64,000 nucleotides of DNA from Candidatus Cloacimonadota bacterium (GCA_020532515.1 JAJBAY010000003.1:1-64000), one strand, 5' to 3'. Counted from the first letter of the stretch, positions 11,903 through 53,449 are shown. Notes: a model not told the origin generated them from the sequence alone. Program-made: numbers and translations.

Positions 11903-12246
11903 ATTAATCCTATCTATAAGTACTTTATTATTATTTCTCAGGCTATCGAATTCCTGTCAAGTGAAAACTGAAGTTCGTGAAATCTTCTCAAAAAAAGCAC
12001 AAGCAAAAAGTAAGCCTATAGCTCACTTGTTCCCTTGATTCGCTTTTAATATAGCTTCGACTCGAACTCACTCGTGCCTTCGAGTGAGTTCGAGTCTAAA
12101 GTGAGTTTAATCCGAATTAAAACAACGGGCAAGGACTGGGATCTCAGCAGAGGTAAAACTAGGGTTACTGCATCAAAGGCATATCTCAAGCGCGTGAACT
12201 GAAGCATTGCCAAAGCACTACGCCGGTTCTAGCCCATAAAGTTTAT
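11903..12246. other. Intergenic region upstream of cyuA
   Basis: No gene is visible in these 344 bases. On the minus strand a TTGACA hexamer (11960 to 11955) is a likely -35 box for the cyuA operon; the -10 is not clear. The family B palindrome occupies 12059-12096. The rest shows no obvious riboswitch or terminator. The palindrome also lies downstream of the oxidoreductase gene (stop at 12247) and could end that transcript, although no T-run follows it. Confidence 0.6.
12059..12096. repeat. Palindrome, dispersed repeat family B, copy 1
   Basis: Perfect 16-base arms, GACTCGAACTCACTCG (12059-12074) and its complement (12081-12096), flank a six-base loop. The outer GACTCGA...TCGAGTC core recurs at 25094-25131 and 41351-41392 with compensated differences in the arms. 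All three copies are intergenic. No T-run follows, so it is not a standard terminator. Confidence 0.85.
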
Positions 12247-13275: not shown

Positions 13276-13286
13276 AAAGGAATCTC

Positions 13287-14465
13287 CTATCTTAAACTCA
13301 TTATATGATTTATCCGTTCTGCGATAAGCTCTGTCACCGCATCACGTGAATATTTCTTTCTTACCAAAGCCTGACCGGATTTGCCAATCTGCGCCAGGGA
13401 CTCAGGATTTTCTATCAGTTGTTCTACTTTCTGTACAAAGGCATAATTATCTGCAGCGACCAGCAGCTCCACCTCATCATTGGCGTCCAGGCTGCTTGCC
13501 ACATTGGGCGTGGTAATCACGGGAAGGCCGCAAGCCATAGCTTCCAAAGCTTTATTTTGGATGCCTGCACTAAAATACATCGGTGCGATAAAGATATCAC
13601 TGGCCATCAGCTCAGCGTAAAGATCTTCTACATAGCCCAGTACTGTGGTATGATTGACATTATCCAAAGCCTTGACTTCTGCAGAGGGTTCTGCGCCTAC
13701 GATGAAGAATTTCAAGAGAGGATATTTCTTGATCAGCGCGGGCATGATCTTTTTACAGACGTTCTGCGCAGCCATAATATTGTGGGGAACGCTCATGTTG
13801 CCGGTGAAGATAAGGCGCCAGGCAAATTCATGTTCTTGTAATACCTCAGGTATCCTCACTTGATTTGGCATGAGCACACTGCGGTGATGGTTTTTGAGCC
13901 CCAGATGCGCGATATCTACCGGTGAGATCACCCAGTTTTCGCTGAAGTGGTCTGCCACCTGGATTTCATAATCAGAGGTTCGCTTTGCCTCCACAGTAAA
14001 AAAGAGTTTTCGCAAACCTTTCAGATGCTCGAGGCGGCGGGTGTACTCCAAAGAGATGCAATCCGTATAATCAAGAATTACATTGGAAGCCCGCGCCAGA
14101 TCTGCATAAGGCACCATCCGGATTAGATGACAATATACCAAGTCATATTCATTCTCTGCCAGCAAATTTGTCAGCAGATTCTTCAGCTTGGGGTTTTGAT
14201 AATAGGCCACCTGAAAGGGAAGCTTACGAAATATGTTTTTAAGCATATTCCTCATCGCCTGAAAGAGACCGTGCTCTACAAACCGGACCTCGGGAATTTC
14301 TTCTTGCATCACTTTCATGGCCTGCTTATCGGTATGGCTGTTTACCAACGACACCAAGGTCAGCTCTCCCAAAGAGGCTAATTGTCGCATCAGAAATAGG
14401 GTACGAACCTTGTCTCCGCGGTCTGGCGGATAGGGTATGCGTGAGGTCAGAAATAGGATCTTCAA
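13287..14465 (-). CDS. Glycosyltransferase family 4, EpsH1/PEP-CTERM-associated type
   Basis: The 392-residue GT-B enzyme opens with ILFLTSRIPYPPDRGDKVRT, typical of the sugar transferases often annotated as PEP-CTERM/EpsH1-associated (TIGR03087-like). The donor domain shows IFTGNMSVPHNIMAA, FFIVGAEPS, VLGYVEDLYAELMASDIFIAP and GIQNKALEAMACGLPVITT. I place the start at the TTG at 14465: AGGTGG lies ten bases upstream and the open frame before it overlaps the preceding gene's stop. The longer frame from 14528 would add 21 uncharged-poor residues with no family match. It belongs to the polysaccharide run between the double glycosyltransferase and the oxidoreductase. Acceptor and sugar are unknown. 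Confidence 0.86.
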   Translation of the reverse strand: MKILFLTSRIPYPPDRGDKVRTLFLMRQLASLGELTLVSLVNSHTDKQAMKVMQEEIPEVRFVEHGLFQAMRNMLKNIFRKLPFQVAYYQNPKLKNLLTNLLAENEYDLVYCHLIRMVPYADLARASNVILDYTDCISLEYTRRLEHLKGLRKLFFTVEAKRTSDYEIQVADHFSENWVISPVDIAHLGLKNHHRSVLMPNQVRIPEVLQEHEFAWRLIFTGNMSVPHNIMAAQNVCKKIMPALIKKYPLLKFFIVGAEPSAEVKALDNVNHTTVLGYVEDLYAELMASDIFIAPMYFSAGIQNKALEAMACGLPVITTPNVASSLDANDEVELLVAADNYAFVQKVEQLIENPESLAQIGKSGQALVRKKYSRDAVTELIAERINHIMSLR

Positions 14466-14476
14466 GTAATTACCAC

Positions 14477-16714
14477 CTATAAAAGTTCTTGAAAAAGCTT
14501 TAGATATCTTTTCTTTTCGCTCTCCCAAGACAGCTCTTGGGTTACCAATCTCTTGCCTTCAGCGCCCATCTGAGCGAGTTTATCGGGCTCTGATAAAAGT
14601 TTCGTCAGGACATCTTGAATCAAAGATACATCACTAGGGTCTATATATAGGCCTGCTACTGCTCTGTCAAGTAATTTCCTGTTTGCAGGCAAATCCGAAA
14701 CCAGTATTGGCAGACCGGCTGCCATGTATTCGAACATCTTGGTGGAAAGTGAATACAGATGATTGGGACTGTGGTCAAAAAGAACCACACCCAATGCGCA
14801 ATCAGAAAAGATGTCTGCAGCCTGTTCACGATTGACATATCCGTACTCTATTACTTTGCTGAATCCAGCCAAGGCAGCCAGCTCATCTCGAAACTCTTTG
14901 GGCTCATAATTTCCCGCCAAATGAAATGTGCAGTCTACGTTTTCAATGGCTTTTACGATCTGCCCTATCCCCCGCTCTCTGGTGATGTTTCCTATATAGC
15001 AGATATTGCGACTGCGGTAGCGGCTTGGATCTGCTGAGATATCCTTCCATTCAGCCAAAATTGGGTAATTGTGCACAATGGGGACGGAGCTGAATTGCTC
15101 TGCGATATGTTCGGTGGCAGCGATAGAGGCGTTCAAAGTCTTTACTGCCCAGTTCTCCAGCTTACGGATCACAAAAGATAGCAGTTTGCCTGCCAGCGGC
15201 GAGAGGTATTCCTTGTGCAAAAACATCTCCGGATAGCATTCGTGGATGTCATAGACCACAGGTTTGCGACTGATGTGTTTGAGCAAAATAGCCATGGGAA
15301 TCAGCTCCGGATCATGAATCTGGTAAGCATCTGCAGGGATATACCTCGCTCTATGCAGGATTTGCCAGGGAGCCAGGAGAAAGCGCTTTTTGCGGCTGGT
15401 AAAAGCCCCGATATCATGAATGATTACACCAGATTTACGCTCGTGCCGGCCTCCATCAGCTACTACGAGATGTACTTTGTAACCTTCTTCAATAAGGCTG
15501 AGGCACTGTTTGTAAAAAACTCTTACATCACTTCTTACATGCACCGAGCTGAGATGACAGATGCACTTGTCTTGTTTGGGTTTAGGATATTCTGCCAGAG
15601 TCTGTGCCACCACATTCTCAAGAGAATAATTCTCTATTACATAATCCCGCAAGAGCTTGGGATCATAGTGGTTTTGTCTCAATTCCGTGATGCCCTCTGC
15701 CAAGGCCTTGGCATCATGCGGAGCTACCAAAACTCCAAGCTCTGGCTTTAAGATATGCTCGCTACCACCGTTATATGTGGCTACCACTGGGATTCCTACT
15801 GCCAAAGCTTCTACCACCACGATGCCAAAGCTTTCGATAAAGCTAGGATGCACCAGAGCATCGTGATTTAGCAGTAGCTGAGCCACTTCGCCAGGGGTCT
15901 TCTCACCCAAAAATTCCACCTGTTTAGAAATGCCATATTCACTACAAAGGCTCTTTAGCTGCTCACGGTAGATACCATCCCCTACGATGCTAAGCCGGAT
16001 ATCGGGATCTGCTAAGAGCTCTATGGCTTTAAGAAGTACATGCACACCTTTATGCTCCACCAGATAGCCAATGTAGATAAGCTTGTTTATGCTTTTGGCG
16101 GGCTGGGATATAGGCTGAAAGAGGGTGGGATCTATGCCATTGGGGATTACCCGAAGGTTAGTAAGGGTAGGAGATGCTTCTAAGATAATCTTGCGGGTAT
16201 GTTCTGATACCGCAATCACCTTAAAAGCATCACGATAGGCCTTCAGCATCTGTTCCCGCAGCTTTTTATTAGCCAATAGATCTTTTAAGACAGCCTGATG
16301 TTCGGTAATGATATATGGGATGCCCAGTTTTTGTGCCAAGAGCCGTGTGGCGACCCCATCTGGCATGGCAAAGTTTGCATGTAATAAATCTATCCTTCCC
16401 CCGCGCATCAATCTTTTAAGCAAAGGTAGCACACAAAGATACTCGATATAGGGGACCCATGGCCTTAGCAGGTTTCGCGGCAACAGCACAAAGCGGGGAT
16501 GGTAAACTGTAAGCTCACGTAAACCCAGACTTATGGTGCGTTTCAAAGGCACTTTCAGCTTTTTGCCTCGCCTGAGTCCCAAGCCCAGGGGCACCGGAGC
16601 GATCACCTCCAGCTCTACATTCTCGGGATAAAACCCTATGTTTTTGAGAACGAAATTACCCTTGTTCGGCTCTACTGGATTGGGGAAAATACTATTGATA
16701 AAGATCACTCGCAT
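14477..16714 (-). CDS. Double glycosyltransferase: two GT4 enzymes fused in one chain
   Basis: A 745-residue protein with two complete GT-B units in series. Unit 1 (about 1-375) begins MRVIFINSIFPNPVEPNKG and has IIGY-type donor-domain start KLIYIGYLVEHKGVHVLLKA, LSIVGDG and HPSFIESFGIVVVEALAVG. Unit 2 (about 380-745) begins CHLSSVHVRSDVRVFYKQC, then VYDIHECYPEMF, NICYIGNITRERGIGQIVKA, FHLAGNYEPKEF and LSTKMFEYMAAGLPILVS. A fusion lets two successive sugars be added by one enzyme. It starts two bases after the flippase stop and is followed by the next glycosyltransferase after 11 bases. The unfused forms are common; this fused pair is less so. I see no frameshift at the junction, so it is a true single frame. 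Confidence 0.9.
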   Translation of the reverse strand: MRVIFINSIFPNPVEPNKGNFVLKNIGFYPENVELEVIAPVPLGLGLRRGKKLKVPLKRTISLGLRELTVYHPRFVLLPRNLLRPWVPYIEYLCVLPLLKRLMRGGRIDLLHANFAMPDGVATRLLAQKLGIPYIITEHQAVLKDLLANKKLREQMLKAYRDAFKVIAVSEHTRKIILEASPTLTNLRVIPNGIDPTLFQPISQPAKSINKLIYIGYLVEHKGVHVLLKAIELLADPDIRLSIVGDGIYREQLKSLCSEYGISKQVEFLGEKTPGEVAQLLLNHDALVHPSFIESFGIVVVEALAVGIPVVATYNGGSEHILKPELGVLVAPHDAKALAEGITELRQNHYDPKLLRDYVIENYSLENVVAQTLAEYPKPKQDKCICHLSSVHVRSDVRVFYKQCLSLIEEGYKVHLVVADGGRHERKSGVIIHDIGAFTSRKKRFLLAPWQILHRARYIPADAYQIHDPELIPMAILLKHISRKPVVYDIHECYPEMFLHKEYLSPLAGKLLSFVIRKLENWAVKTLNASIAATEHIAEQFSSVPIVHNYPILAEWKDISADPSRYRSRNICYIGNITRERGIGQIVKAIENVDCTFHLAGNYEPKEFRDELAALAGFSKVIEYGYVNREQAADIFSDCALGVVLFDHSPNHLYSLSTKMFEYMAAGLPILVSDLPANRKLLDRAVAGLYIDPSDVSLIQDVLTKLLSEPDKLAQMGAEGKRLVTQELSWESEKKRYLKLFQELL

Positions 16715-37838: not shown

Positions 37839-39570
<1,732 letters not shown>

Positions 39571-39886: not shown

Positions 39887-40606
39887 ATGAAAAGCCTAAA
39901 ATTGAGACGTTTACGTAACCGTAAGAGCCATAGAGTTTCCTGCCTGATTCTTTTTTTCGCTGTGATTCTTGTCAGCGGGTTTATTGTTAATTTGAGCCTG
40001 AGACACAAGAAAAAAGCTCCCGAATCACAGCCCACAATAGTGCAGGTGCAGGATAGCACGAACGTGATTGCCCCAAACTCGCCGGTCAAGACTGCTCCAG
40101 CTCTATCAGACAGCGTAGTCCGCAAAGCTCCAGACCCTGCTCGCATCAAGAAAGCACGCATGATCACCAAGGGAGATTATCTGCTGATCGAGAAGAGTCG
40201 TCACCTTTTACATCATTACCGCGATGGGGTGCTTATGACAAGCTACAGTGTGGCCTTGGGCAAAAATCCGAATGACAAGACCAAAGTAGGCGATAACGCC
40301 ACTCCCGAAGGGCACTTTGAGGTGAATTACATCAAGGATTCCAGTGCTTGGGAACATGATTTTGGCGATGGCAAGGGATTGGTTAAAGATGCTTATGGTC
40401 CTTTCTTTATTGCCCTCTACACTGGTGCCAAAGGTTCATTTTCAGGCAAGACCTGGCGGGGAATCGGCATACACGGCACTCACAAACCGTCCTCTATTGG
40501 CAGCAATGAATCCGAAGGCTGTATTCGCCTGCACAACGCTGAACTGCTGGAACTGAAAGCAGCTATCGAGGGCAAAGGCAATGTCCCTGTGGACATCATT
40601 AAATAG
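39887..40606 (+). CDS. L,D-transpeptidase (YkuD family), membrane-anchored
   Basis: A 239-residue periplasmic enzyme that probably forms 3-3 peptidoglycan cross-links or attaches proteins to peptidoglycan. A basic N-terminus and one helix (about 19-37, CLILFFAVILVSGFIVNLSL) anchor it in the inner membrane. A Pro/Ser-rich linker follows. The YkuD domain runs about 95-239: YLLIEKSRHLLHHYRDG, VGDNATPEGHFEVN, GIGIHGTHKPSSIGSNESEG and the catalytic CIRLHN with Cys near residue 212 and the required upstream His in IHGTH. No LysM or other binding domain is present. It is followed by a small membrane-protein gene after 91 bases. Confidence 0.93.
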   Translation: MKSLKLRRLRNRKSHRVSCLILFFAVILVSGFIVNLSLRHKKKAPESQPTIVQVQDSTNVIAPNSPVKTAPALSDSVVRKAPDPARIKKARMITKGDYLLIEKSRHLLHHYRDGVLMTSYSVALGKNPNDKTKVGDNATPEGHFEVNYIKDSSAWEHDFGDGKGLVKDAYGPFFIALYTGAKGSFSGKTWRGIGIHGTHKPSSIGSNESEGCIRLHNAELLELKAAIEGKGNVPVDIIK

Positions 40607-40949: not shown

Positions 40950-41306
40950 ATGAAAGTGCTTATCGTCTTCAACCGCGAACCCTATGATAATACCGATGTC
41001 ACCTGGAATGGCCTGCGTCTGGCCGAAACCCTCAGAGGAAAAGGCCATGAACTGAGAATATTTCTCATGAACGACTCTGTGGATATGGCCCGTGACGTCT
41101 GCAAACCGCCGGAAGGCTACGATCAGGACCTCTCGCAAATGCTCAAAGACCTCATCGCCAAAGGAGTTTCCGTGAAGGTATGCGGTACTTGCATGGCCCG
41201 TTGCGGTATCTATAAAAACCACCCCTATTTTGAAGGTGCTGCAAAATCCACTATGGCAGAGCTTGCCGATTGGGTGGTGGATAGTGATAAAGTATTGACC
41301 TTTTGA
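40950..41306 (+). CDS. DsrE/DsrF-like sulfurtransferase-family protein
   Basis: A 118-residue cytoplasmic protein with the DsrE fold: VLIVFNREPYDNTDVTWNGL at the N-terminus, IFLMNDSVDMA in the second strand and KVCGTCMARCGI, three Cys at the site where DsrE and TusD carry the active Cys. Family members relay sulfur as persulfide or bind small thiol partners. No dsr, tus or rhodanese gene is adjacent, so the partner is unknown. AAGGAG lies eight bases before the ATG. The family is broad; sulfur transfer is an inference, but the Cys cluster supports it. Confidence 0.87.
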   Translation: MKVLIVFNREPYDNTDVTWNGLRLAETLRGKGHELRIFLMNDSVDMARDVCKPPEGYDQDLSQMLKDLIAKGVSVKVCGTCMARCGIYKNHPYFEGAAKSTMAELADWVVDSDKVLTF

Positions 41307-41613: not shown

Positions 41614-44600
41614 ATGCTAAGAACACCCACGTATATGCGTGAGAATCAGGAGCGCCTAAAAAAGACCATAGATATGGTCACGCGGCTTTATGTCTATAAC
41701 CTCAAAGGTGATGATATCACTGCCAGTGAGACGGACATCCTGTATTCACTTCTTACCAATCTTTTTGCGCAAGTCGATGTCTCCTGGGAATCTTATGTAA
41801 AGCAGATCATGGAAAGCGAATATGATATCGAGGAAGTCCTGAGATTTCTGGATCGACATCTCTCGCTATTTGATAAAATCCGGCTCCTCCAATCTCTGGT
41901 GATCATGGCGCGCACCGAAGCAGATTTTGACATCTCAGAGCTCACGGAAATCATGCATTTCAGCAAGCAGCTCAATATATCTTCTGAAGTCTTTTTGCCG
42001 TTGATAGACCATCTTGAGCATCATCGCTCCGGACTGGTAAGCATTCCCTGCCGTCATCATCTGAGTCACCTCAAACATTCCGTATTTTCGGATTATGTGG
42101 TCTTTGGCTCGGGCACTGGCACAGATATAGCGTTCCGTAGTGAGCGGCTAAGCTCTTATGAATGCGCGATCTTTGCCATCGATAAATACTTTTTCGTGAG
42201 CATCCCCTCCAGTTCCTCAGCACTGATCTCTTCCCAGGTGCCGGAACGTAATTCCATCATTTTGCTTTCGGATGATGCCGTGCTCTCTTTGGGTGGGAGA
42301 AACTATTCTCATAGTTGCCTGGAAAATCTGTATGCGCTGCGTGATGAAAGTGATGTAATAGCCTTTCGTAAGAGTAGCTATGACTTTACCGTGTACAAGG
42401 AACGCAATAGCTTCAGTATTTTGGTGGGTAGCGGAGTGGTGTCTTTGAATGGCCGGGAGATCCCTCATAACCGCCGTCATGAAGTGTTTTTTGATGACAC
42501 TATGCAGATCAAAGGCTACGCACCTTTCCATCTGGTGATGGTAATCGAAAACCGGGGCAGCATCGGGGTGGATGATTACGTCCCTAAAAGGCTGTACATC
42601 TATCTGGAAAAGGGCTATTTTTCCATCAGTCGTGAGGATAGCGAAAACAGCATTGCCTTGATCGAGCTCAGGGGGCAGACCTATCATGTGCTTCCGCCCA
42701 AAAAGGGCTACAGCATATACGTAAATCGTAAGGTGGTAAAGGAAGCCACACCCATTGCCTTGAATTCGGATATTCTCACCATCGAAAAACGCAATTACCG
42801 GATCAATAATTTCTTTGACCTCATCGAGACTCCCTTTGAGATGCAAAAGCTTTCTGTGGTGGATATCAAACACTTCTTCAGGGATGGCAAGCTCGCCCTG
42901 GATTCTGTCTCTTTTGAAGTGGAAAAAGGTCAGCTCGTGGCGATCCTGGGACAAAGCGGCTGCGGAAAATCCACCCTCACCAATGTGCTCGCCACCGAAA
43001 TTACACCCACCTATGGACAGATCCTGATCGACGGCAAACCCATCCATTCGAACCTCAATTACTACCTGGAATACCTGGCCTATGTGCCACAGCAGGACAT
43101 GCTTTACCCCAATCTCAGCGTATATGAAAACCTGTATTTCCGTCTGCGCCTCAGAATGCCCAAATTGCAGAAATCTGTGATCGAACAGAAGGTAAATAAC
43201 ATCCTTTTTCATGTGAAGCTGAACCACCACCACGATACCATAGTGGGAGAAAGCAGTGCCAAAAACCTCTCCGGCGGAGAACGCAAACGTCTGAATATCG
43301 CGCTGGAACTGCTCTTTGAGCCTACCATCATCATCTGCGACGAACCCACCAGCGGTCTATCCTTTAATGACGCAGAGCAGATCATCGGCATTTTGTCCAA
43401 GCTCTGCGAACAGGGCAAGATCGTGATCATCACCATCCATCAGCCCAATAGCAGCATCTATCGCAAGTTTGACCGGGTAATGATGATGGATATGGGAGGC
43501 AGAGTAGCATTTTATGGCACACCCAATGAGAGCTTTGCCTATTTTGATGAAGAACTGCAATTGCTGAGCAATAATAAGACCGAGATAGAGACCAAACGGC
43601 ACCTAAAGACTTCGGATTACTTTTACGATGTCATCACCTATCCAGAATATGACGCTCAGGGCCAACCGGTGTACGAACAATTGCAAAAACAGGTGCAGGC
43701 CAAACGCATGTTTACCCCGGAATACTGGAGGGATAAATTCAAGCGGAAGATGCTGTTTGAGATGATTCAAAGCGATGCTTTCGAAACCAGCGTTGCCATC
43801 CCCAGTTCAAAGCGCAGACGCAAACCCATGGGGCTCAAAAGCTATGTCTTAAGCCTTCTGACCTTCATCTCGCGTAGCTTCAAAATGAAGTTCCGCGGCC
43901 GCACGAATCAGATTATCACCTTTATCGAAGCACCCCTGCTGGCACTGATCATCGCCTTTATCTTGCGGCACACCACCAGCGCCAGCTATTCTTATCATGA
44001 CAATAACAATATCTTTATTTATATCTTCGTCTCCCTCATCGCCTTTATTTTTTTGGGGATGTCAAATAGCATCGAAGAGATCCTCGGCGAACGCAGGATC
44101 GTGCTCAGAGAGCGCCTCATGAATCTGAAGATGAGCAGCTACCTGCTCTCAAAGATCATCACGCTCTGCTTTTTCGGATTTGTCCAAGCCGTACTTTATC
44201 AGGCTATTGCAGCATTGATATTGGGCGTCAAGGGTCTGGGCCTCAGCAGCATCCTCTATTTCTTTTTGGCTTCCATGGTGGGCAATTCCATCGGGCTCTT
44301 GTGTTCTGCCTTCATCAAAGAAAACCGCGTGATCATCAATCTGCTACCCTTGATTTTGATCCCGCAAATTATCTTTGGTGGTGCAGTAATAGAATTTGAA
44401 CGTATGAACCGCAATCTCACACTATGGCAGAGGCATCCAATTCCGGAAGTGGTGCAGGCTATCCCCTCGCGTTGGCTCTTTGAGGGACTCACCACAGCTT
44501 ATGCCAAAAACACCAAGTTTCACCGTGCTCTGCGCAAAATAGAAAAAAAGGAATTGACATATTTACAGGATTACAGGAATGCTGCAATCACTAGTAAGGA

Positions 44601-44877
44601 ATTCCAAAAGCGGCGTGCAGAGGTGTATTATGCCAAAACCGCTATCGCCGAAAAATGGGACCCGAATGAGATCGTGAATAGCTATCTAAATTCTGCTGTG
44701 AGCATGATGGATGGCAAGGTAATGAATACAGAACGCAATGAATTTATGTCCAGTTACAAGATTTGGGGTACGAGATCTCTACGTACCTGGAATTTTAATG
44801 CCCTGGTGATTTTGCTTTTTGCCTTTGTGCTGAATCTGATCACTTGGATAAAACTAAAAGTCTATTTCAAGGAATAA
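41614..44877 (+). CDS. TerB-like / FHA-like / ABC ATPase / ABC-2 permease fusion protein
   Basis: A 1087-residue half-transporter. About 1-145 is all-helical and resembles TerB-type domains (VIMARTEADFDISELTEIMH). About 150-400 looks like FHA-type beta-sandwiches (LYIYLEKGYFSISREDSENS, YSIYVNRKVVKEATPIAL), so it may read phosphoserine/threonine. The ATPase spans about 415-640: Walker A LGQSGCGKSTL near 444, signature NLSGGERKRLNIALELL near 551, Walker B IIIICDEPTSGLSF near 572, H-loop ITIHQPNSS near 607. The order ATPase then permease and the SGGERKR form are of the ABCG/White type. About 750-1087 is an ABC-2 permease with six helices. It heads an eight-gene run. Related FHA-ABC fusions exist in cyanobacteria and others; substrate is unknown. 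The TerB and FHA calls rest on pattern only. Confidence 0.87.
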   Translation: MLRTPTYMRENQERLKKTIDMVTRLYVYNLKGDDITASETDILYSLLTNLFAQVDVSWESYVKQIMESEYDIEEVLRFLDRHLSLFDKIRLLQSLVIMARTEADFDISELTEIMHFSKQLNISSEVFLPLIDHLEHHRSGLVSIPCRHHLSHLKHSVFSDYVVFGSGTGTDIAFRSERLSSYECAIFAIDKYFFVSIPSSSSALISSQVPERNSIILLSDDAVLSLGGRNYSHSCLENLYALRDESDVIAFRKSSYDFTVYKERNSFSILVGSGVVSLNGREIPHNRRHEVFFDDTMQIKGYAPFHLVMVIENRGSIGVDDYVPKRLYIYLEKGYFSISREDSENSIALIELRGQTYHVLPPKKGYSIYVNRKVVKEATPIALNSDILTIEKRNYRINNFFDLIETPFEMQKLSVVDIKHFFRDGKLALDSVSFEVEKGQLVAILGQSGCGKSTLTNVLATEITPTYGQILIDGKPIHSNLNYYLEYLAYVPQQDMLYPNLSVYENLYFRLRLRMPKLQKSVIEQKVNNILFHVKLNHHHDTIVGESSAKNLSGGERKRLNIALELLFEPTIIICDEPTSGLSFNDAEQIIGILSKLCEQGKIVIITIHQPNSSIYRKFDRVMMMDMGGRVAFYGTPNESFAYFDEELQLLSNNKTEIETKRHLKTSDYFYDVITYPEYDAQGQPVYEQLQKQVQAKRMFTPEYWRDKFKRKMLFEMIQSDAFETSVAIPSSKRRRKPMGLKSYVLSLLTFISRSFKMKFRGRTNQIITFIEAPLLALIIAFILRHTTSASYSYHDNNNIFIYIFVSLIAFIFLGMSNSIEEILGERRIVLRERLMNLKMSSYLLSKIITLCFFGFVQAVLYQAIAALILGVKGLGLSSILYFFLASMVGNSIGLLCSAFIKENRVIINLLPLILIPQIIFGGAVIEFERMNRNLTLWQRHPIPEVVQAIPSRWLFEGLTTAYAKNTKFHRALRKIEKKELTYLQDYRNAAITSKEFQKRRAEVYYAKTAIAEKWDPNEIVNSYLNSAVSMMDGKVMNTERNEFMSSYKIWGTRSLRTWNFNALVILLFAFVLNLITWIKLKVYFKE

Positions 44878-44890
44878 AGGAGTAACAATT

Positions 44891-45688
44891 ATGAAGACTA
44901 AAATAGTCATCGCAATGGTGTTGATTATGGTGCTGAGCTTGGTAGCCTGTAAGAAAAAGGCACCGCAAGTTCCCAGTGAAGAGCTCATAGAGCAGGCAAT
45001 TACCTTTGCCCCTCTGCCTTCTTTCAAAGAAGTATATGTAGCGCTGGATCAGGTGCAGGTAAAAGACATCTCTGCAGCTGTGCCTGCCAAAATCTACAAA
45101 ACCAAACAGGAAGAAGTGCGTAACGCCTTTTCCCTTGGTCTATTAACTGCTGATGCCGTATTGGCAGCAAAGGGCCGCAACAAGAATAAACTCAGCGAGA
45201 TTTCAGCTTCCATGATGAACCTCACCTCACTGCTGGCTCTGGAATCAGAAGTTAATCGTTTGGGCGATCAGATGAAGAAAATGATCGAAAAAGAAGAGTG
45301 GGAAGAACTGGATAAAGCCCTCGATTTTCACAAAGGTGACGTAGAAAGTAAGCTTTGGGAACAAGAGAACTTTGATAATTATACTCTGATGCTTTTGGGT
45401 GGATGGATCGAAGCCGCAAACCGCGTGGCTTGGTTGATTCATCAAGACTACAATGCCGAGAGAACCACGGTGCTGGCCCAAAAGGGAACCTTCAACAGCC
45501 TCGTTCTCAATATGCAGCAGATCACCACTCCTCATATCGTGGAACAAGAAGCATTTGGGGAGTCCCTCAAGCTTTTAAAAGAAGTAAAGGCTATCATAGA
45601 CAACGATCAAAACCGCACATATACTAAGGATCAATTGAAACAGATCGTCACCAAGACGGATGAGATCAAAGCTGCTTTTCAAAAGTAA
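44891..45688 (+). CDS. Lipoprotein of unknown function in the FHA-ABC operon
   Basis: A 265-residue lipoprotein: signal MKTKIVIAMVLIMVLSLVAC with lipobox LVAC, then KKKAP. The mature part is mostly helical (FSLGLLTADAVLAAKGRNKN, SEVNRLGDQMKKMIEKEEWE, LLKEVKAIIDNDQNRTYTKD) and looks like a compact helical bundle. I recognise no named family. GGAG is nine bases before the ATG, 13 bases after the ABC gene. Basic residues right after Cys favour no particular membrane. As the second gene of the operon it is the natural periplasmic partner of the transporter. Confidence 0.8.
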   Translation: MKTKIVIAMVLIMVLSLVACKKKAPQVPSEELIEQAITFAPLPSFKEVYVALDQVQVKDISAAVPAKIYKTKQEEVRNAFSLGLLTADAVLAAKGRNKNKLSEISASMMNLTSLLALESEVNRLGDQMKKMIEKEEWEELDKALDFHKGDVESKLWEQENFDNYTLMLLGGWIEAANRVAWLIHQDYNAERTTVLAQKGTFNSLVLNMQQITTPHIVEQEAFGESLKLLKEVKAIIDNDQNRTYTKDQLKQIVTKTDEIKAAFQK

Positions 45689-45714
45689 GTAATGCCGGAA
45701 TACTTCAGATATTT

Positions 45715-45744
45715 CCCAAAACCGGAACTTAATCCGGTTTTGGG
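45715..45744 (+). other. Strong hairpin between genes 2 and 3 of the FHA-ABC operon
   Basis: CCCAAAACCGGA (45715-45726) and TCCGGTTTTGGG (45733-45744) form a perfect 12-bp stem with loop ACTTAA. No T-run follows, so it is not a clear terminator. It lies in a 124-base gap, the only large gap in the operon, and may act as a processing, stability or attenuation site. Confidence 0.7.
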
Positions 45745-45812
45745 GAAGGTCTATCCTACCCTATATACAAGACGACCCTATTCCCAAAACCCTTAGGATA
45801 AGGAGAGTACAG

Positions 45813-46910
45813 ATGCGTAAAACTCTGTTGTGTTTATTGTTTTCTATCCTGATCAGCCTGCTGATGGCAAATACCTTTTCCGCTGAGGACAGTCCCTGGG
45901 ACGATGGCAAATCCATTGACCTGAACTGGGAACTGAGCCCCATGGTGAAAAAGGTGGAAATCTGCAGGCAAAATGGTGATGAGCCAGTCCGAATATTGGT
46001 CACCTGTACAGACGCCACCGGGAGCTTCAGGGATAATGAACTCCAGCCCAATAATGAATATCACTATCAACTCAAAGCCTACTTCGAGGATGATGATCTC
46101 ACTTTGCGGGCCAGCGCTCAGACTCGTGAGCAATGGTTCTATATGGGTAAACTGGGTTTCTTGATCCTGCTCCTGCTCCTCTGTGCTGCTATCATCTATT
46201 ACATTCAGGCTGCCCGGCATGGAAAGGAATTCTTCATTCGCCGCATCGCAGGACTGGATAGCATGGAAGAAGCCATCGGACGTGCCACCGAAAAGGGCAA
46301 ACCCATCCTCTACGTACCAGGCATCAGCGATCTGGATGATATTCAGACCATTGCCAGCCTTACCATCCTCAGCCATTTGGCCGAAAGAGCCGCAGAATAT
46401 GATACTGAGATTATCGTGCCCTGCAGGTTCTCAATGGTGCTCTCTGCCGCCAAAGAAGTGGTGCGGGAAGCCTATATCAAAGTAGGAAGGCTGGATGCTT
46501 ACAAGCCGGACAATATCTTTTATCTTACCGACGACCAATTTGGCTTTGTCGCTGGAATAGATGGCATCATGCTGCGCAGAAAGCCTGCGGCAAACTTCTT
46601 TATGGGCTCCTTTTATGCAGAGTCTCTGATTCTAGCCGAAACTGGCTTTGCCACCGGTGCCATCCAAACTGCCGGTACCGCTCAGGCTCATCAATTGCCT
46701 TTCTTTGTAGTCACTTGTGATTATACTTTGATCGGTGAAGAGCTTTTTGCCGCCAGCGCTTATCTTTCCAAGGATCCTCAGCAGCTTGGCAGCCTCAAGG
46801 GGCATGATTTCGGCAAACTCCTCATCATCCTGCTTATCATCGTTGGTGTGATTCTGGAAATCATGGGCATCTCAAACCTCAAAGAATTTATCGTAGGAGC
46901 AATCTCATGA
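45813..46910 (+). CDS. DUF6754-like membrane protein with fibronectin-like N-terminus
   Basis: A 365-residue protein resembling the uncharacterised DUF6754 family. Signal peptide MRKTLLCLLFSILISLLMAN; about 28-108 is a fibronectin type III-like sandwich (IDLNWELSPMVKKVEIC, PNNEYHYQLKAYFEDDD); about 113-133 a transmembrane helix; about 145-330 a soluble alpha/beta domain (KPILYVPGISDLDDIQTIAS, AAEYDTEIIVPCRFSMVLSA, NFFMGSFYAESLILAETGFA, ATGAIQTAGTAQAHQLPFFV); about 335-358 a second helix. Topology suggests the sandwich is periplasmic and the alpha/beta domain cytoplasmic. Four-base overlap with the next gene. Function unknown; its fixed place beside the ABC fusion implies a shared complex. Confidence 0.82.
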   Translation: MRKTLLCLLFSILISLLMANTFSAEDSPWDDGKSIDLNWELSPMVKKVEICRQNGDEPVRILVTCTDATGSFRDNELQPNNEYHYQLKAYFEDDDLTLRASAQTREQWFYMGKLGFLILLLLLCAAIIYYIQAARHGKEFFIRRIAGLDSMEEAIGRATEKGKPILYVPGISDLDDIQTIASLTILSHLAERAAEYDTEIIVPCRFSMVLSAAKEVVREAYIKVGRLDAYKPDNIFYLTDDQFGFVAGIDGIMLRRKPAANFFMGSFYAESLILAETGFATGAIQTAGTAQAHQLPFFVVTCDYTLIGEELFAASAYLSKDPQQLGSLKGHDFGKLLIILLIIVGVILEIMGISNLKEFIVGAIS

Positions 46911-47605
46911 AAAGCACGGCACCACTTTTCTTCGCTTTCATAGTAGGCGTTATCGTTCTGCTCTCAGAATTTATCCCGCATAGTCCTTTCAACCAGATCG
47001 TCTCCACCCTGGAAGGCTGGTTCATGATTATCTCCGGTTTTGCCATCCTCTTGGGACAGATCAGCTTGATCAGGATGAATACGCACAAAATAGTACACAA
47101 GCTTGACAATTGGCAGTACCATCTGGCTGGGCTGATCAGTTTTGGGCTCATGCTCACACTTGGCCTTTTATGGGGCATGCAGGAAACTCCCGGCATCCTG
47201 GGAGATGCACCAGGGATCCAAGCCTGGCTGGGACAAAAGCCTTTTGATTATCTCTTTGATAATGCCTATTTGCCGCTTTCGGCCACTCTGTTTTCACTGC
47301 TGGCCTTCTTCATCGCCTCTGCGGCGTACAGAGCCTTTATCATCCGCGGGCTGGAATCAAATCTGCTCATGATCACTGCCATCATCGTCATCATTGGGCG
47401 CACCAGTATAGGCACCATGCTCACTGGCTGGCTGCCCGAAAATCTGCAATTCTGGCATTTCCCCAATCTAGCGGATTTCATCATGGAATTCCCCAATACC
47501 GCAGCCCAGAGAGCGATCCTCATCTCTGCAGGCTTAGGCATCGTGGGCAGTTCTCTCAGAATCATTCTGGGCATTGAACGCAGCTATCTGGGAGGCGACA
47601 AATGA
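46907..47605 (+). CDS. Polytopic membrane protein of the FHA-ABC operon (subunit 4)
   Basis: A 232-residue protein with about six hydrophobic helices: APLFFAFIVGVIVLLSEFIP, WFMIISGFAILLGQISLI, LAGLISFGLMLTLGLLWG, LPLSATLFSLLAFFIASAAY, LMITAIIVIIGR, AAQRAILISAGLGIVGSSLR. A short basic loop (RMNTHKIVHKLDNWQYH) faces the cytoplasm. The AYRAFIIRGLESNLLM segment recalls the way small membrane subunits of DUF6754 loci look, but I have no family name. Start and stop overlap both neighbours by four bases, so translation is coupled throughout. No enzyme motif is seen. Confidence 0.8.
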   Translation: MKSTAPLFFAFIVGVIVLLSEFIPHSPFNQIVSTLEGWFMIISGFAILLGQISLIRMNTHKIVHKLDNWQYHLAGLISFGLMLTLGLLWGMQETPGILGDAPGIQAWLGQKPFDYLFDNAYLPLSATLFSLLAFFIASAAYRAFIIRGLESNLLMITAIIVIIGRTSIGTMLTGWLPENLQFWHFPNLADFIMEFPNTAAQRAILISAGLGIVGSSLRIILGIERSYLGGDK

Positions 47606-48429
47606 AGCTTTCCGCTATGGTTGAACGCAGGATCATCTACCTGGTGCTTCTTGTAGCTGTAGCCCTTCCCCTCCTCTTCCCCATCGGTTGGAAGACCGAG
47701 GTTTCCGGATACACCCAGATGGCCTATGATCTCATCGAAAACACCCCCGAAGGTAAGGTAGTAATCATTTCCTTTGATTACGATCCTTCCACCATGACCG
47801 AGCTGCAACCTATGGGAGAAGCGATGATCGAGCACGCTTTCAAGCGCGATCAAAAGATCATCACTACAGCCCTGTGGCCGATGGGAGTGCAGATGGCTGA
47901 GCAAGCTTTTGACAAAGTGCTGCGGGATTATCCCGATAAAAAGCGGGGTGTGGACTATGTCAATCTGGGCTACAAGGTAGGCGGTATGGTTACCATCCAA
48001 GCCATGGGTAGAGATATGAAAGAGGTGTATCCCAAAGATACCAGAAATACTCCCTATGAAGAGATTCCCCTGCTTGCCAATACCAGACGCTTGAAAGATG
48101 TTGCCTGGGTGAGCTCACTCTCCAGCGGAGTGCCCGGCCTGAAGGAATGGATGATGGTGGCGCGGGATTCATACAACGTACCCGTTACCGGTGGATGCAC
48201 CGCAGTAAGTGCTCCCGGCTTCTTTCCTTATGTAAATGAGCAACGGCAGCTTACCGGCCTCTTGGGTGGACTCAAGGCCGCCAGTGAATATGAAAGTTTG
48301 ATCGGCAGATTGGGCACTGCTACTACCAAGATGGATGCCCAATCAGTGGCCCATCTATTGATTCTCATCTTTATCGCCCTGGGCAATATCAAAGTATTTG
48401 TCGCCAAGAGGAGGAAGAGCAATGATTAG
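47602..48429 (+). CDS. Membrane-anchored alpha/beta protein of the FHA-ABC operon (subunit 5)
   Basis: A 275-residue protein with an N-terminal helix (about 10-28, IIYLVLLVAVALPLLFPIG) and a C-terminal helix (about 248-266, HLLILIFIALGNIKVFVAK). Between them is a domain with alternating strands and helices: EGKVVIISFDYDPSTMTELQ, KIITTALWPMGVQMAEQAFD, VDYVNLGYKVGGMVTIQAM, DVAWVSSLSSGVPGLKEWM and TGGCTAVSAPGFFPYVNEQR. Given the hairpin topology it should face outward. The layout (GG-A/C-T...PFF, then a helix ending in GGL/SLKG) is loosely similar to the end of the DUF6754-like soluble domain. No known family was recognised. ATGA-type overlaps tie it to its neighbours. Confidence 0.8.
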   Translation: MKLSAMVERRIIYLVLLVAVALPLLFPIGWKTEVSGYTQMAYDLIENTPEGKVVIISFDYDPSTMTELQPMGEAMIEHAFKRDQKIITTALWPMGVQMAEQAFDKVLRDYPDKKRGVDYVNLGYKVGGMVTIQAMGRDMKEVYPKDTRNTPYEEIPLLANTRRLKDVAWVSSLSSGVPGLKEWMMVARDSYNVPVTGGCTAVSAPGFFPYVNEQRQLTGLLGGLKAASEYESLIGRLGTATTKMDAQSVAHLLILIFIALGNIKVFVAKRRKSND

Positions 48430-49060
48430 CATAATGAACACCTTTGGAATCTGGCTCGCCGCTTTCTTTACCCTGTGCATTTTCAGCTTTTTGTACAAGG
48501 ACAATCCCTTCTACAAGTTTGCCGAACAGGTCTTTGTTGGTCTCTCTGCTGCTTACTGGTTGGTATATATTATCTACTCGATCATGGTGCCGAATCTTTT
48601 TGCCAAGCTTGCTGATGATTTCTCGGGCAATATCATTTTACTCATCCCGGCTGCTTTGGGGCTGATGATGCTCATGCGCATCCATCCCAAAACGCAGTGG
48701 GTCAGCCGCTACCCCATCGCCATCATGGTGGGCACCACCGCCGGTATCTCCATGCTCCGGTATATGAAGAGCGATATCTTGCAACAGCTTACCGCCACCA
48801 TGATCAATCCCTTTGCCGCAGCTACCACCGCCGAAGTAATCGGAAATCTGCTGATGATTATCGGCACCATTTGTGGCGTGTACTTCTTTTACTTCAGCAA
48901 GAAACAGGAAGGCGTCTCCAAGGCTGTCTCCAAGGTTGGCATCTGGTTCCTGATGGTAAGCTTTGGCGCTACCTTCGGTTACACGGTGATGGCACGTATT
49001 TCGCTTTTGATCGGCCGTCTGGATTTTCTCTTGGGAGACTGGTTACACCTGATAAAATAA
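48422..49060 (+). CDS. Polytopic membrane protein of the FHA-ABC operon (subunit 6)
   Basis: About 212 residues with six or seven hydrophobic helices: NTFGIWLAAFFTLCIFSFLY, FVGLSAAYWLVYIIYSIMV, NIILLIPAALGLMMLMRI, YPIAIMVGTTAGISMLRYM, VIGNLLMIIGTICGVYFFYF, GIWFLMVSFGATFGYTVMAR. I choose the ATG at 48422, whose eight-base overlap with the previous stop continues the coupling; the open frame from 48398 starts inside that gene. DNPFYKFAEQVFVG looks like a conserved amphipathic loop. Family unknown. Together with subunits 3-5 it would form a membrane core around the ABC fusion. Confidence 0.8.
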   Translation: MISIMNTFGIWLAAFFTLCIFSFLYKDNPFYKFAEQVFVGLSAAYWLVYIIYSIMVPNLFAKLADDFSGNIILLIPAALGLMMLMRIHPKTQWVSRYPIAIMVGTTAGISMLRYMKSDILQQLTATMINPFAAATTAEVIGNLLMIIGTICGVYFFYFSKKQEGVSKAVSKVGIWFLMVSFGATFGYTVMARISLLIGRLDFLLGDWLHLIK

Positions 49061-49069
49061 GGAATTAAT

Positions 49070-50599
49070 ATGCTACAATTACACCAACGCTTTATAGAGA
49101 CAGCAAAGCGCTTTCCGCAGCGCATTGCCGTGTATGACAAATCCACCGGCGCAGATTACAGCTATGACAAGATGCTGATCGCCAGCCTGATCCTGAGTGG
49201 ACACATAGGCAAGATCAAGGGCAGATACATCGGCATCCTGCTTCCCACAGGCGTAGGCGCCATGCTCACCATCCTGGGGACCTTGATGAAGGGTAAAGTT
49301 CCAGTTATGATAAATTACGCCACCATGGCTATAGAAAATTGCCGATATGCCCGGGAGAAATGCCAGTTTAAGACCATTATCACCAGCAAACAACTCTTGA
49401 AAAAGCTGGGGCTCGAACCCATAGATCACATGATCTTTGTGGAGGATATCTTAGCGGGTGTGACCCTTGTGGCCAAGCTCAAAGCGGCTTTGACCTCCAA
49501 GCTGCCCTTTTCTGTGCTGAAAAACCTGGTGCATCATGGCGAGCTCTCAGAGATCTCCGTGATCCTTTTTACCAGCGGTAGCGAGAAAGAGCCCAAAGCT
49601 GTGCAGCTCTCACATCGCAATATTTTGCACAATGTAAATGCCTTCCCAAAAATGATCCATTTGGATGAAAATGATGTCTTTGCCTCCATCCTGCCGATGT
49701 TCCATGTTTTTGGACTCACGGTGGATTTCTGGCTGCCAACTCTGATCGGAGCCAGCATGGTGACCTATGCCAATCCCTTGGAATATGGTACAGTATGCGA
49801 TTATATCCGGGATTACAAGGTTACCTTTATCGCCGCTACTCCTGCCTTTTTCTATGGCTATCTGCAAAAGTCCAGCCCGGGAGATTTTGCCTCGGTGAAG
49901 ATCGCTATTGCTGGAGCAGATCGCCTTCCCGATAAAATCTACGAAGGATTCCTGGCCAAGCACAATCTCACAGTCTTGGAAGGCTATGGCACCACCGAAA
50001 CCAGTCCGGTAATCTCCACCTGCATCCACGGCCAGCACAAACATGGCTCTGTCGGGCTACCCATGCCCAATACCCAGGTGCGCATCGTTGACATTGATAC
50101 GGATAAAATCCTTGGGCCCAATCAAGAGGGGAAGATCCTGGTGAAAGGCGATCTGGTGATGGAGGGCTATCTCTACGATTTGGAACAAACCTCACTGCGC
50201 ATCAGAGGTGGTTGGTATGATACCGGTGATATCGGCCTCTTTGATAGCGATGGCTACCTTTATCACAAAGGACGCCTCAAACGCTTTGTGAAGGTGGGAG
50301 GTGAGATGGTATCCCTGGTGAAAGTGGAAGAGCTCCTCAGCGATCTTTTGCCCGATGATGTGATCTGTTGCGTGGTGGATGTTCCCCATCCCAGCAAAGG
50401 CGCCGATGTAGTGGCAGCAGTGACCACTGGAGATTTTGACATGCACAAAGTGCTCAAACAACTCAAAAAGGAGCTGCCTGCAATCGCCATCCCCAAACAG
50501 TTTCTGGTGATCAAAGACATCCCCATGATGGCCTCGGGAAAGGTAAATTTCCGCGAGATAGAGAAGATAGTTCGCGAACAAGGACATAAGAAACGCTGA
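49070..50599 (+). CDS. AMP-dependent acyl ligase resembling the acyl-ACP synthetase domain of Aas
   Basis: A 509-residue adenylate-forming enzyme. P-loop ILFTSGSEKEPKAVQLSHRN near residue 165, FHVFGLTVDFWLP, VLEGYGTTETSPVIS (A5 motif), GGWYDTGDIGLFDSDGYL (A7), GRLKRFVKVGGEMVSLVKVE (A8) and ASGKVNFREIEKI with the A10 Lys. The pattern SEKEPKAVQLSHRNI, MFHVFGLT and KVGGEMVSL is the style of the Aas acyl-[ACP] synthetase domain, which activates fatty acids for lysophospholipid reacylation. The acyltransferase half of Aas is absent. It starts nine bases after subunit 6 and its stop overlaps the next start, so it belongs to the operon and hints at a lipid substrate. Confidence 0.9.
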   Translation: MLQLHQRFIETAKRFPQRIAVYDKSTGADYSYDKMLIASLILSGHIGKIKGRYIGILLPTGVGAMLTILGTLMKGKVPVMINYATMAIENCRYAREKCQFKTIITSKQLLKKLGLEPIDHMIFVEDILAGVTLVAKLKAALTSKLPFSVLKNLVHHGELSEISVILFTSGSEKEPKAVQLSHRNILHNVNAFPKMIHLDENDVFASILPMFHVFGLTVDFWLPTLIGASMVTYANPLEYGTVCDYIRDYKVTFIAATPAFFYGYLQKSSPGDFASVKIAIAGADRLPDKIYEGFLAKHNLTVLEGYGTTETSPVISTCIHGQHKHGSVGLPMPNTQVRIVDIDTDKILGPNQEGKILVKGDLVMEGYLYDLEQTSLRIRGGWYDTGDIGLFDSDGYLYHKGRLKRFVKVGGEMVSLVKVEELLSDLLPDDVICCVVDVPHPSKGADVVAAVTTGDFDMHKVLKQLKKELPAIAIPKQFLVIKDIPMMASGKVNFREIEKIVREQGHKKR

Positions 50600-51273
50600 T
50601 GGATATCACTTCTATAATGCACCCAGACTATCAGCCTCTGTTGGTCAAGATCGCTGAGGTAGCAGCTCATGTCCACGCTTATGGCTGGGCTGAGGCCAAT
50701 GCCGGTAATCTCAGCATCGATGTAAGCAATATCGTGAAGAAGCATATTCCGACTCAAGAGAGATGGTTTATCGTTTCCCGCACAGGTAGCCGCTATCGGC
50801 AGACCGCTATCCGTCCCCATGACAATCTGCTCTTGATAAGCTGCAATGAAGATCAGGATACCTTCTTTCCCAAGGCTGCCAAGCCCACCAGTGAATGGAT
50901 CAGCCATCGCTGTCTGCAAATGGCAAACCCGTGCTTTTCGGTGATCCTGCACACCCATCCCGCTGAGATCATCGCCCTGGCATCTCTGCCCATCATGCAG
51001 CATCCGGAAGAGCTGTACCAGATGATGAGCTCTCTTTTGCCGGAGCTCCCTCTCTATTTGCCAGAAGGGGTAGCCATCTGTCCCCATCAGCCACCTGGTT
51101 CGCTTCAGCTTTGTCAGAGTAGCCAAAAGGCTTTGACGAACCAAAAGGCCTTAATCTGGAGTGGGCACGGCCTGCTTACCTTTGCCAACGATCTCGATGA
51201 AGCCTTGGATTACATGGAGATTATCGTCAAAGCGGCACGCATCTTCTTTTTGAAAGCAAGTTTACAGAGTTAA
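50599..51273 (+). CDS. Class II aldolase/adducin-like protein (RhaD-like)
   Basis: A 224-residue zinc aldolase-fold protein. Seen: GWAEANAGNLSID (phosphate-binding N-terminus), FIVSRTGSRYRQ, VILHTHPAEIIALAS with His118 and His120 as metal ligands and Glu123 at the catalytic position of rhamnulose-1-phosphate aldolase, and WSGHGLLTFA with the third His near 190. It is about 50 residues shorter than E. coli RhaD (274) but keeps all metal ligands. No rhamnose or fucose genes accompany it. Its start overlaps the ligase stop by one base. Substrate unknown; it may act as an aldolase or epimerase. Confidence 0.87.
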   Translation: MDITSIMHPDYQPLLVKIAEVAAHVHAYGWAEANAGNLSIDVSNIVKKHIPTQERWFIVSRTGSRYRQTAIRPHDNLLLISCNEDQDTFFPKAAKPTSEWISHRCLQMANPCFSVILHTHPAEIIALASLPIMQHPEELYQMMSSLLPELPLYLPEGVAICPHQPPGSLQLCQSSQKALTNQKALIWSGHGLLTFANDLDEALDYMEIIVKAARIFFLKASLQS

Positions 51274-51439: not shown

Positions 51440-53449
51440 ATGAGCATGGCTACTAAAAAGAAAAAAGAAACCGGGGAACTCAGTATCCATACTGAGAACA
51501 TCTTCCCCATCATAAAGAAATGGCTCTATTCCCAGCATGATATCTTCCTGAGGGAACTCGTCTCAAACGCTGTGGATGCTATCTCAAAACGTAAATATGC
51601 AGATCCTGATTTCAAGCAAGAAGACATGAAGATCGAGATCAAGCTGGATAAATCCAAGAAGACTCTCGAGATAATAGATACAGGGATCGGCATGACTGCC
51701 GACGAGATCAAGAAATACATCAATCAGATAGCATTCTCTGGTGCAGAGGACTTTGTGAACAAGTTCAAAGATGTGCAAAGCAATATCATCGGTCACTTTG
51801 GTCTGGGCTTTTATTCATCCTTCATGGTGTCGGACAAAGTCACCATAGATTCCCTCTCCATCGAAGAAGGCAGCAAACCGGCTTTTTGGGAGTGTGACGG
51901 CACCACCTCATACAGCATGGCCGTTGGCAAGCGCAAGGAAGTGGGCACCACCATCACCTTGTACTTCAATGAAGATTCCAAAGATTATGCCAAGGATGAG
52001 AAGATCAAAGAGATTCTGGAGCGCTACTGCAACTTCATGCCCTATCCCATCATGTTTGATGGCAAGCAGATCAACCAATTGGAAGCCTTGTGGAACCGCA
52101 TCCCTGCCGAGGTCAAAAGAGAAGAATACATCGAGTTTTACAAACAGGTCTTTCATGACTACCAGGATCCGGTTTTCTGGATTCATCTCAATGTAGATTT
52201 CCCCTTCAACCTCAAAGGAATCCTGTATTTCCCGAAATTGCGCAATGAACCTGAATTCTTCAAAGGCGAGGTCAAGCTCTTCTGCAACAACGTCTTTGTG
52301 GCAGACAATCTGGAAGACCTCATCCCTGAATTCTTACTCCTGCTCAAAGGCGGCATAGACATTCCGGATATCCCGCTCAACGTCTCTCGCAGCTTCTTGC
52401 AGAACGACGCCCAAGTGCAGAAGATCTCCAAATATATCATCAAGAAAGTGGCTGACAACTTCAACGCTACCTTCAAGGAAGATCGCAAGAAGTATGAAGA
52501 GTATTGGGAAGACATCCACACCTTTATCAAGTTCGGCATGCTCAAAGAAGACGACTTCTTCGAGGCCATGAAGGACATCGCTATCTTCAAATCCGCCAGT
52601 GGAGACTATCTCACAGTGGAGGAGTACAAACTGCGCAATGCGGCAAATTCCAAGGATGAAAGCACCAAAATCTGGTATGCAGCCAGCGAAGATACCCAGG
52701 TGAGCTATTTGAATTTGATGAAAGAGCAAGGCTTGGAAGTGATCTATCAGACCTCTCCTCTTGATATTCATCTGTATCAGAAATTGGAAGGCAAACTGGA
52801 GAAAGTGGAATTTATCCGCATAGATAGTGAAGTGAACGACCTTCTGGTAAATCAGGAAGACAGCAGCATTTCGGAAGCTGACCGCGAGCATCTTAAGAAA
52901 CTGTTTTACAATGCCCTGGGGCAGAAAGTGGAAGCTTCTTTCAGTAAAGAGAGCCTCAAAGACTACTTCAAAAAGTATCCTGAAGCCGCCACCCTACTCA
53001 CCAACTATCAAATCCAAAAGGGTGAACAGACCCTGATCAACCTGCTGGATCTGCCCGTAGAAGTAGTAGAAAAGCTGGGGACAAAGGCTATGGAAGACCT
53101 GCAGAATCATGCCTATACCGAACTCAAGATAGAAGTGAAGAACCTCAAAACCAAGGAGATTCCCGGCATCATCGTCTTCAGCGAATTTATGCGCCGTTGG
53201 CACGATATGGACATGTTTTCACGCATGGGTGGAGCTGGCGATATGCTAAAGAATCACTCTCTGGTGGTCAATACCGAAAACAAAGTGATCCAAAAGATCC
53301 TGAAGCTGGACAAAGCCGGCAAGAAAGAGAAAGTAGATACACTCTGCGCTTACATCCATGACCTGTCACTTTTGGAGCAAAAACCCTTCAGCGGAGAAGA
53401 GCTAAAAGGCTTTATCCAGAAGGCAAACAAGGTTCTGTCCTATATATAA
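51440..53449 (+). CDS. htpG: Chaperone HtpG (bacterial Hsp90)
   Basis: ATP-dependent cytosolic chaperone. GHKL ATPase motifs: ELVSNAVDAISKRKY (box N), IIDTGIGMTADEI (N1), NIIGHFGLGFYSSFMVSDKV (G2), GTTITLYFNE. The middle domain has IPLNVSRSFLQNDAQV with the catalytic Arg region (DIPDIPLNVSRSFLQ), and the C-terminal domain carries MRRWHDMDMFSRMGG. At 667-669 residues it is longer than E. coli HtpG (624), within the range for other phyla. The start may be the ATG at 51440 or the second at 51446, nine bases after GGAG and therefore better spaced. Heat-shock control is suggested by the operator upstream. Confidence 0.97.
   Translation: MSMATKKKKETGELSIHTENIFPIIKKWLYSQHDIFLRELVSNAVDAISKRKYADPDFKQEDMKIEIKLDKSKKTLEIIDTGIGMTADEIKKYINQIAFSGAEDFVNKFKDVQSNIIGHFGLGFYSSFMVSDKVTIDSLSIEEGSKPAFWECDGTTSYSMAVGKRKEVGTTITLYFNEDSKDYAKDEKIKEILERYCNFMPYPIMFDGKQINQLEALWNRIPAEVKREEYIEFYKQVFHDYQDPVFWIHLNVDFPFNLKGILYFPKLRNEPEFFKGEVKLFCNNVFVADNLEDLIPEFLLLLKGGIDIPDIPLNVSRSFLQNDAQVQKISKYIIKKVADNFNATFKEDRKKYEEYWEDIHTFIKFGMLKEDDFFEAMKDIAIFKSASGDYLTVEEYKLRNAANSKDESTKIWYAASEDTQVSYLNLMKEQGLEVIYQTSPLDIHLYQKLEGKLEKVEFIRIDSEVNDLLVNQEDSSISEADREHLKKLFYNALGQKVEASFSKESLKDYFKKYPEAATLLTNYQIQKGEQTLINLLDLPVEVVEKLGTKAMEDLQNHAYTELKIEVKNLKTKEIPGIIVFSEFMRRWHDMDMFSRMGGAGDMLKNHSLVVNTENKVIQKILKLDKAGKKEKVDTLCAYIHDLSLLEQKPFSGEELKGFIQKANKVLSYI

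Follow-up and report, generated by a model that had tools for sequence, protein, structure and literature searches.

The DNA analysed here, a window of 64,000 nucleotides (GCA_020532515.1 JAJBAY010000003.1:1-64000), corresponds to contig C119 of a 2.33 Mb draft genome of Candidatus Cloacimonadota, a phylum in the FCB group. Between positions 41614 and 51273 all eight open reading frames (ORFs) of a predicted gene block, here called A to H, were found to be co-directional on the + strand and mostly overlapping. The four genes C-D-E-F (45813-49060) encode, on balance probably, the membrane half of a seven-component system consisting of S, MutL, BSH, C, D, E and F, an ATPase-linked inner-membrane machine that would act on the cell envelope. 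The quartet comprises:

45813-46910, + strand: C, 365 amino acids (aa), core gene; N-terminal signal, FN3 domain predicted to be periplasmic, membrane helix, DUF6754 domain predicted to be cytoplasmic, C-terminal membrane helix
46907-47605, + strand: D, 232 aa, core gene; about six predicted membrane helices, no known family
47602-48429, + strand: E, 275 aa, core gene; membrane helix, Rossmann-like domain predicted to lie outside the cytoplasm, membrane helix
48422-49060, + strand: F, 212 aa, core gene; about five to six predicted membrane helices, no known family

Overlapping or near-touching genes, as originally proposed for this block, are borne out by overlaps of 4 base pairs (bp) for C/D, 4 bp for D/E, 8 bp for E/F and 1 bp for G/H and by gaps of 13 bp for A-B, 124 bp for B-C and 9 bp for F-G, whereby the start of F is taken to be the ATG at 48422 (the mechanical ORF begins at a TTG at 48398). 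As the genes are conserved across two phyla, chance ORFs are excluded.

Conservation of the C-D-E-F quartet

The original prediction had described an uncharacterised eight-gene membrane complex built round A, a TerB/FHA/ABC fusion. Gene neighbourhoods were compared in 32 loci of the family to which the stretch belongs and in seven loci from other families of its order, with a neighbour counted only where the contig left room to see it. Within the family, D is next after C in 29 of 30 loci, with E and F likewise in 30/30, and B stands directly before C in 31/31; G is present in 22/28 and H in 27/28 loci, while A adjoins B in 14/28. The seven loci from other families all have D, E and F next to C but lack A, B, G and H there, although one of these loci (L160) possesses an A-B pair nearby on the opposite strand. 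A was recovered from 29/40 relatives, outside the family usually on a contig different from that of the quartet, and was not found in G013, G015, G018 and G020, genomes which all keep the quartet. The order C-D-E-F, on the other hand, is held in essentially every intact locus examined in the two phyla, with L072 as the one exception in order. As A adjoins in part of the family only, while D-E-F follow C in nearly all loci, C-D-E-F can be identified as the unit, to which A, B, G and H were added in this lineage. A complex centred on the ABC fusion is consequently not upheld. Of the expected conservation of the membrane proteins beside the fusion, the part that stands is that C-D-E-F are tightly kept together, along with S, MutL and BSH; the fusion itself is not kept beside them. 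The proposal of a conserved and undescribed membrane protein set, a new system, holds for C-D-E-F, retained across two phyla. Genes for secreted, TonB, glycosyltransferase and other proteins found near C in other Cloacimonadota families were considered as a further shared neighbour, but dropped as inconsistent.

DUF6754, the family of C, is encoded in 102/104 Cloacimonadota genomes and in 181/201 genomes of Armatimonadota, the phylum to which locus L061 belongs; 14 control genomes all lack it. The two phyla are a lower bound, as the scan of named genomes with C retrieves close-range relatives, which were restricted to Cloacimonadota and Armatimonadota. Forty further Armatimonadota loci show the same D, E and F after C, save loci that are cut by contig ends or harbour an inserted stretch. 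Plasmid and viral collections contained no relative of DUF6754 or BSH.

Most Cloacimonadota of the family encode three DUF6754 proteins each. The two further ones, mostly 900-1150 aa long and with FN3-type N-termini, flank or precede a second set D'-E'-F'. Giant DUF6754 proteins (about 975-1010 aa), whose extracytoplasmic parts are long and of FN3 type, were seen flanking or preceding D'-E'-F' at L065:7583-10585 and 12922-15846, L063:8792-11719 and L067:3642-6677 and 9070-12003. A tree of the concatenated D, E and F proteins separates three groups, the stretch-type Cloacimonadota and the second-type Cloacimonadota, each with a support of 100, and the Armatimonadota, weakly supported as one group (67). 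As almost all genomes sampled from the two phyla retain the seven-gene set, and duplicates and fusions of it exist, it is likely to be of importance for the cell.

Domain content of the quartet proteins

The original prediction regarded four membrane proteins as lacking a recognised function. This applies to D, E and F, which are without a family, whereas C matches DUF6754 (PF20539) over the whole domain (E = 1.1e-122, 408.6 bits versus a gathering score of 27) and also carries an FN3 domain, seen in the predicted model. No Pfam or NCBIfam cut-off is passed by S, BSH, D, E and F, thus five of the seven components, in the copies of the stretch or in reference copies, and the sixth is only a domain of unknown function. 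Among C-D-E-F, S and BSH a sequence profile relative in the PDB was not found, except for a weak link of C to FN3.

The AlphaFold2 model of E (pLDDT 90.3, pTM 0.85, from 29 sequences) displays one membrane helix, an alpha/beta Rossmann-like domain and another membrane helix. Naming E by its fold was abandoned, as Foldseek against the PDB gave generic Rossmann-like matches, with TM-scores not exceeding 0.35 and without a hit at E <= 0.001. The model of C shows the signal and the FN3 domain, then a helix, an alpha/beta domain that is modelled in part and a last helix, and is poor at residues 241-304 (pLDDT below 50); as the DUF6754 part is poorly modelled, Foldseek essentially retrieved only FN3. 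By the positive-inside rule, DUF6754 would be cytoplasmic and the domain of E located outside the cytoplasm. Near-invariant in more than 95% of rows from both phyla (stretch numbering) are Q242, R255, E270, C302, D303 and K335 of C, E150 and E224 of D, E67 and Q216 of E, and R192 and R199 of F. Homology of C with E and of D with F, which look alike by eye, was rejected after profiles built from shallow and from deeper alignments had been compared with each other; a profile relationship was equally not found within the pairs C/D and E/F.

S, MutL and BSH as probable partners of the quartet

In many Armatimonadota loci C is directly preceded by genes for a MutL of about 600 aa and a barrel-sandwich-hybrid protein (BSH) of about 375 aa, with a gene for S, a small helical protein of about 100 aa, before MutL, so that a single operon S-MutL-BSH-C-D-E-F is often observed. 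MutL is an ASKHA ATPase of the GlmL/MutL family (PF13941, E to 1e-132), and S is homologous between the two phyla (phmmer E to about 1e-19). In Cloacimonadota the order S-MutL-BSH is found as an operon of its own in 20/20 loci read, apart from C-D-E-F. In yet other loci (L107, L111-L121, L124, L130, L132 and L133) S stands directly before C-D-E-F, and in the members checked of this arrangement BSH and MutL are encoded elsewhere in the genome; L131 has the order S-C-D-E-F-MutL-BSH. Joined to either half depending on the lineage, S therefore bridges the halves, which would be difficult to account for if the seven proteins did not act together. A MutL-BSH fusion of about 950-1080 aa occurs in Cloacimonadota and adjoins the second, paralogous quartet in one genome, G026 (L068). 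In the genome of the stretch, contig C102 carries S and MutL, C82 begins with BSH, and the MutL-BSH fusion lies on C130 (1286-4123).

Some features of these loci were noticed in passing. The fusion of G026 (L068:3706-6879) has an N-terminal CxxC...CxxC zinc-ribbon-like stretch. A protein of about 140-170 aa with weak similarity to a bacterial PH domain (bPH_6) is encoded before S-C-D-E-F in some Armatimonadota lineages (L107:9183-9650, L111:7624-8136, L131:6450-6863). Directly upstream of S-MutL-BSH, L137:331-1050 encodes a ComF-like protein with a double zinc ribbon and a phosphoribosyltransferase domain, and a gene of similar size is found at this position in most other Cloacimonadota S-MutL-BSH loci.

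Both halves are kept or lost together. Among the 201 Armatimonadota genomes, 180 encode DUF6754 and BSH, 15 neither, one DUF6754 only and five BSH only (Fisher p = 1.5e-17, uncorrected for kinship). MutL is also absent from 3/3 double-negative genomes checked and present in three BSH-only genomes checked. The gene set, its conservation, the co-occurrence of its parts and its domain content can be read from the genome sequences themselves.

RnfC and NqrA are peripheral cytoplasmic subunits of Rnf and Nqr, and BSH displays barrel-sandwich similarity, best to Biotin_lipoyl (2.4e-7), followed by RnfC_N (1.8e-4) and weakly NQRA_N, besides a weak KOW similarity. C-D-E-F together with a peripheral BSH might thus constitute a membrane-bound enzyme or ion-motive complex that performs a reaction or moves ions, with MutL as its repair or reactivation chaperone. 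MutL/GlmL have been described as a reactivating chaperone, with GlmL acting for glutamate mutase (PMC4682846), and the near-invariant Cys, Asp, Gln, Arg, Glu and Lys of C can be seen as a possible active site. However, a ferredoxin, FMN or B12-binding domain above cut-off was found in none of S, BSH, C, D, E and F, the BSH alignment is without an invariant Cys and the RnfC/NqrA matches of BSH stay below curated cut-offs, which leaves such an enzyme a possible but rather unlikely alternative.

Proposed mode of action

In the preferred reading of a seven-protein membrane machine, D and F would form the membrane core, while C would show its DUF6754 domain to the cytoplasm and its FN3 domain to the periplasm, to which the Rossmann-like domain of E would also face. 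MutL-BSH-S may dock onto C from the cytoplasmic side, and the ATP cycle of MutL could drive the assembly or remodelling of an envelope component, or its transport. We infer the ATP-driven step and the envelope role from the behaviour of the ASKHA family and from two domains predicted to be periplasmic, FN3 of C and the domain of E; a physical complex of the seven proteins and its topology are likewise proposals.

Several observations weigh against this machine. In most Cloacimonadota MutL and BSH do not adjoin the quartet, and the genes around the quartet vary by family without a consistent cargo. Shared ancestry and incomplete drafts inflate the co-occurrence p value. The biochemistry of the components is known by family only, with the GlmL relatives being reactivating chaperones of a B12 enzyme and not membrane machines. 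The chances appear about even that an undescribed and ancient inner-membrane machine of seven proteins, powered by a GlmL-type ASKHA ATPase and near-universal in Cloacimonadota and Armatimonadota, performs an envelope job done by a different apparatus in other bacteria.

Lineage-specific neighbours of the quartet

The genes that surround the quartet in the stretch are:

41614-44877, + strand: A, 1087 aa; TerB-like helices, degenerate FHA-like beta region(s), ABCG-type ATPase and ABC-2 permease; lineage-specific neighbour, not core
44891-45688, + strand: B, 265 aa; predicted helical lipoprotein, lipobox LSLVAC
49070-50599, + strand: G, AMP-forming acyl ligase, similar to the Aas ligase
50599-51273, + strand: H, class II aldolase (RhaD-like)

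Several original assignments proved correct, as B possesses the signal and the lipobox LSLVAC of a lipoprotein, and the proposed acyl ligase and aldolase are recognized by profile as an AMP-forming acyl ligase (G), closest to the ligase half of Aas, and a class II aldolase (H). A homologue of H is placed behind a pyruvate-kinase barrel in one fusion at L059:14791-16506 (PF00224 5.5e-71 plus Aldolase_II), with versions of similar length in L044, L054 and L055. Not far from the block, one on each side, the chaperone genes for GroEL (37839-39560) and HtpG (51440-53449) were read from the sequence, as were, upstream of A, an L,D-transpeptidase-like gene (39887-40606) and a gene for a DsrE-like small protein (40950-41306).

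A, B, G and H perhaps have a role with lipid or surface cargo. ABCG relatives move lipids, G is similar to that half of Aas which acts as acyl-ACP ligase, and many loci of the family combine A, B, G and H with C-D-E-F in one block. Such a block might serve the export of an envelope lipid of this family, with G activating acyl chains, A exporting the lipid and B and C-D-E-F relaying it through the periplasm. Outside the family, though, C-D-E-F persist without G, H, A and B in the block, so that this improbable route could amount only to a local application of the core system.

A was originally considered a half-transporter with TerB-like and FHA-like regions in front, the transport of which may be gated by a signal, FHA domains being readers of phosphothreonine. 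The transporter part is sound, as an ABC ATPase (PF00005, 2.7e-34) is followed by an ABC-2 permease (PF01061, 1.2e-19) in one chain and ABCG5/G8/G2 align over both. The TerB/FHA front, however, is significant in orthologues only: FHA matches 8/13 (best 9.1e-8) and TerB 5/13 (best 4.3e-7), while in the A of the stretch neither FHA (E = 0.098) nor TerB is significant. In the FHA-like region an Arg follows the conserved Gly in 1/13 orthologues, and the His of the S-x-x-H motif is replaced by Glu or Asp in 13/13; as the binding Arg and His are lost, reading of phosphothreonine by A is doubtful. The suggested search for Ser/Thr kinases linked to the locus (PF00069) gave three matches in the genome, on contigs C95, C138 and C2, and none on C119. 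Genuine FHA and TerB similarity in the orthologues and the precedent of Rv1747, an FHA-ABC-permease protein whose FHA I binds a phosphothreonine protein (PMC5549992), speak for a phosphothreonine-gated ABC transporter with membrane partners. The degenerate FHA residues, the missing kinase gene on the contig and the absence or lack of linkage of A in half of the family loci and in all tested loci of other families make it very improbable, and signal gating is not sustained. A thus resembles the Rv1747-type transporters in combining an FHA-like region, ABC ATPase and permease in a single chain, but differs by its extra TerB-like helices, its degenerate FHA residues, the lack of a kinase gene alongside and its place outside the core.

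Relation to known systems

The seven-protein system is apparently undescribed, as a paper naming DUF6754 or PF20539 or explaining the gene set was not found in the literature searched, although subscription journals may hold a description. The Pfam entry DUF6754, matched by C over its whole length, is without a function and does not include D, E, F, S, MutL and BSH. An anti-phage defence role was considered and found no support; PADLOC matched no defence model to C-F, S, BSH and MutL, but only the ABC ATPase of A.

With Rnf and Nqr, the system shares a peripheral barrel-sandwich protein (the N-terminus of RnfC/NqrA, here BSH) accompanied by several integral membrane partners, while Fe-S, FMN or NADH modules were not found in its components and the BSH matches are sub-threshold. 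The platforms of type IV pili and type II secretion (PilM or GspL with PilN/O or GspM/F), to which there is no sequence link and whose secretion ATPase and pilin were not seen in the loci, provide a works-like analogy from general knowledge, as they combine a cytoplasmic ASKHA protein with small membrane partners.

MutL belongs to the same ASKHA family as GlmL/MutL of glutamate mutase (PF13941, NF040745, TIGR01319) and the ornithine-pathway relative (NF040744). The MutL of the system is, however, linked to membrane proteins, and the mutase genes GlmS and GlmE were absent among its scanned neighbours, whole genomes not having been searched for a mutase. It stays below the NCBIfam cut-offs with 232 of 475, 219 of 600 and 165 of 204 bits, the first being the equivalog test for the GlmL of glutamate mutase, and therefore represents a separate branch. 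If the proposed machine is real, the GlmL/MutL ATPase family would extend from the repair of B12 enzymes to a membrane machine, for which culturable Armatimonadota offer a testing ground of the seven-gene system.

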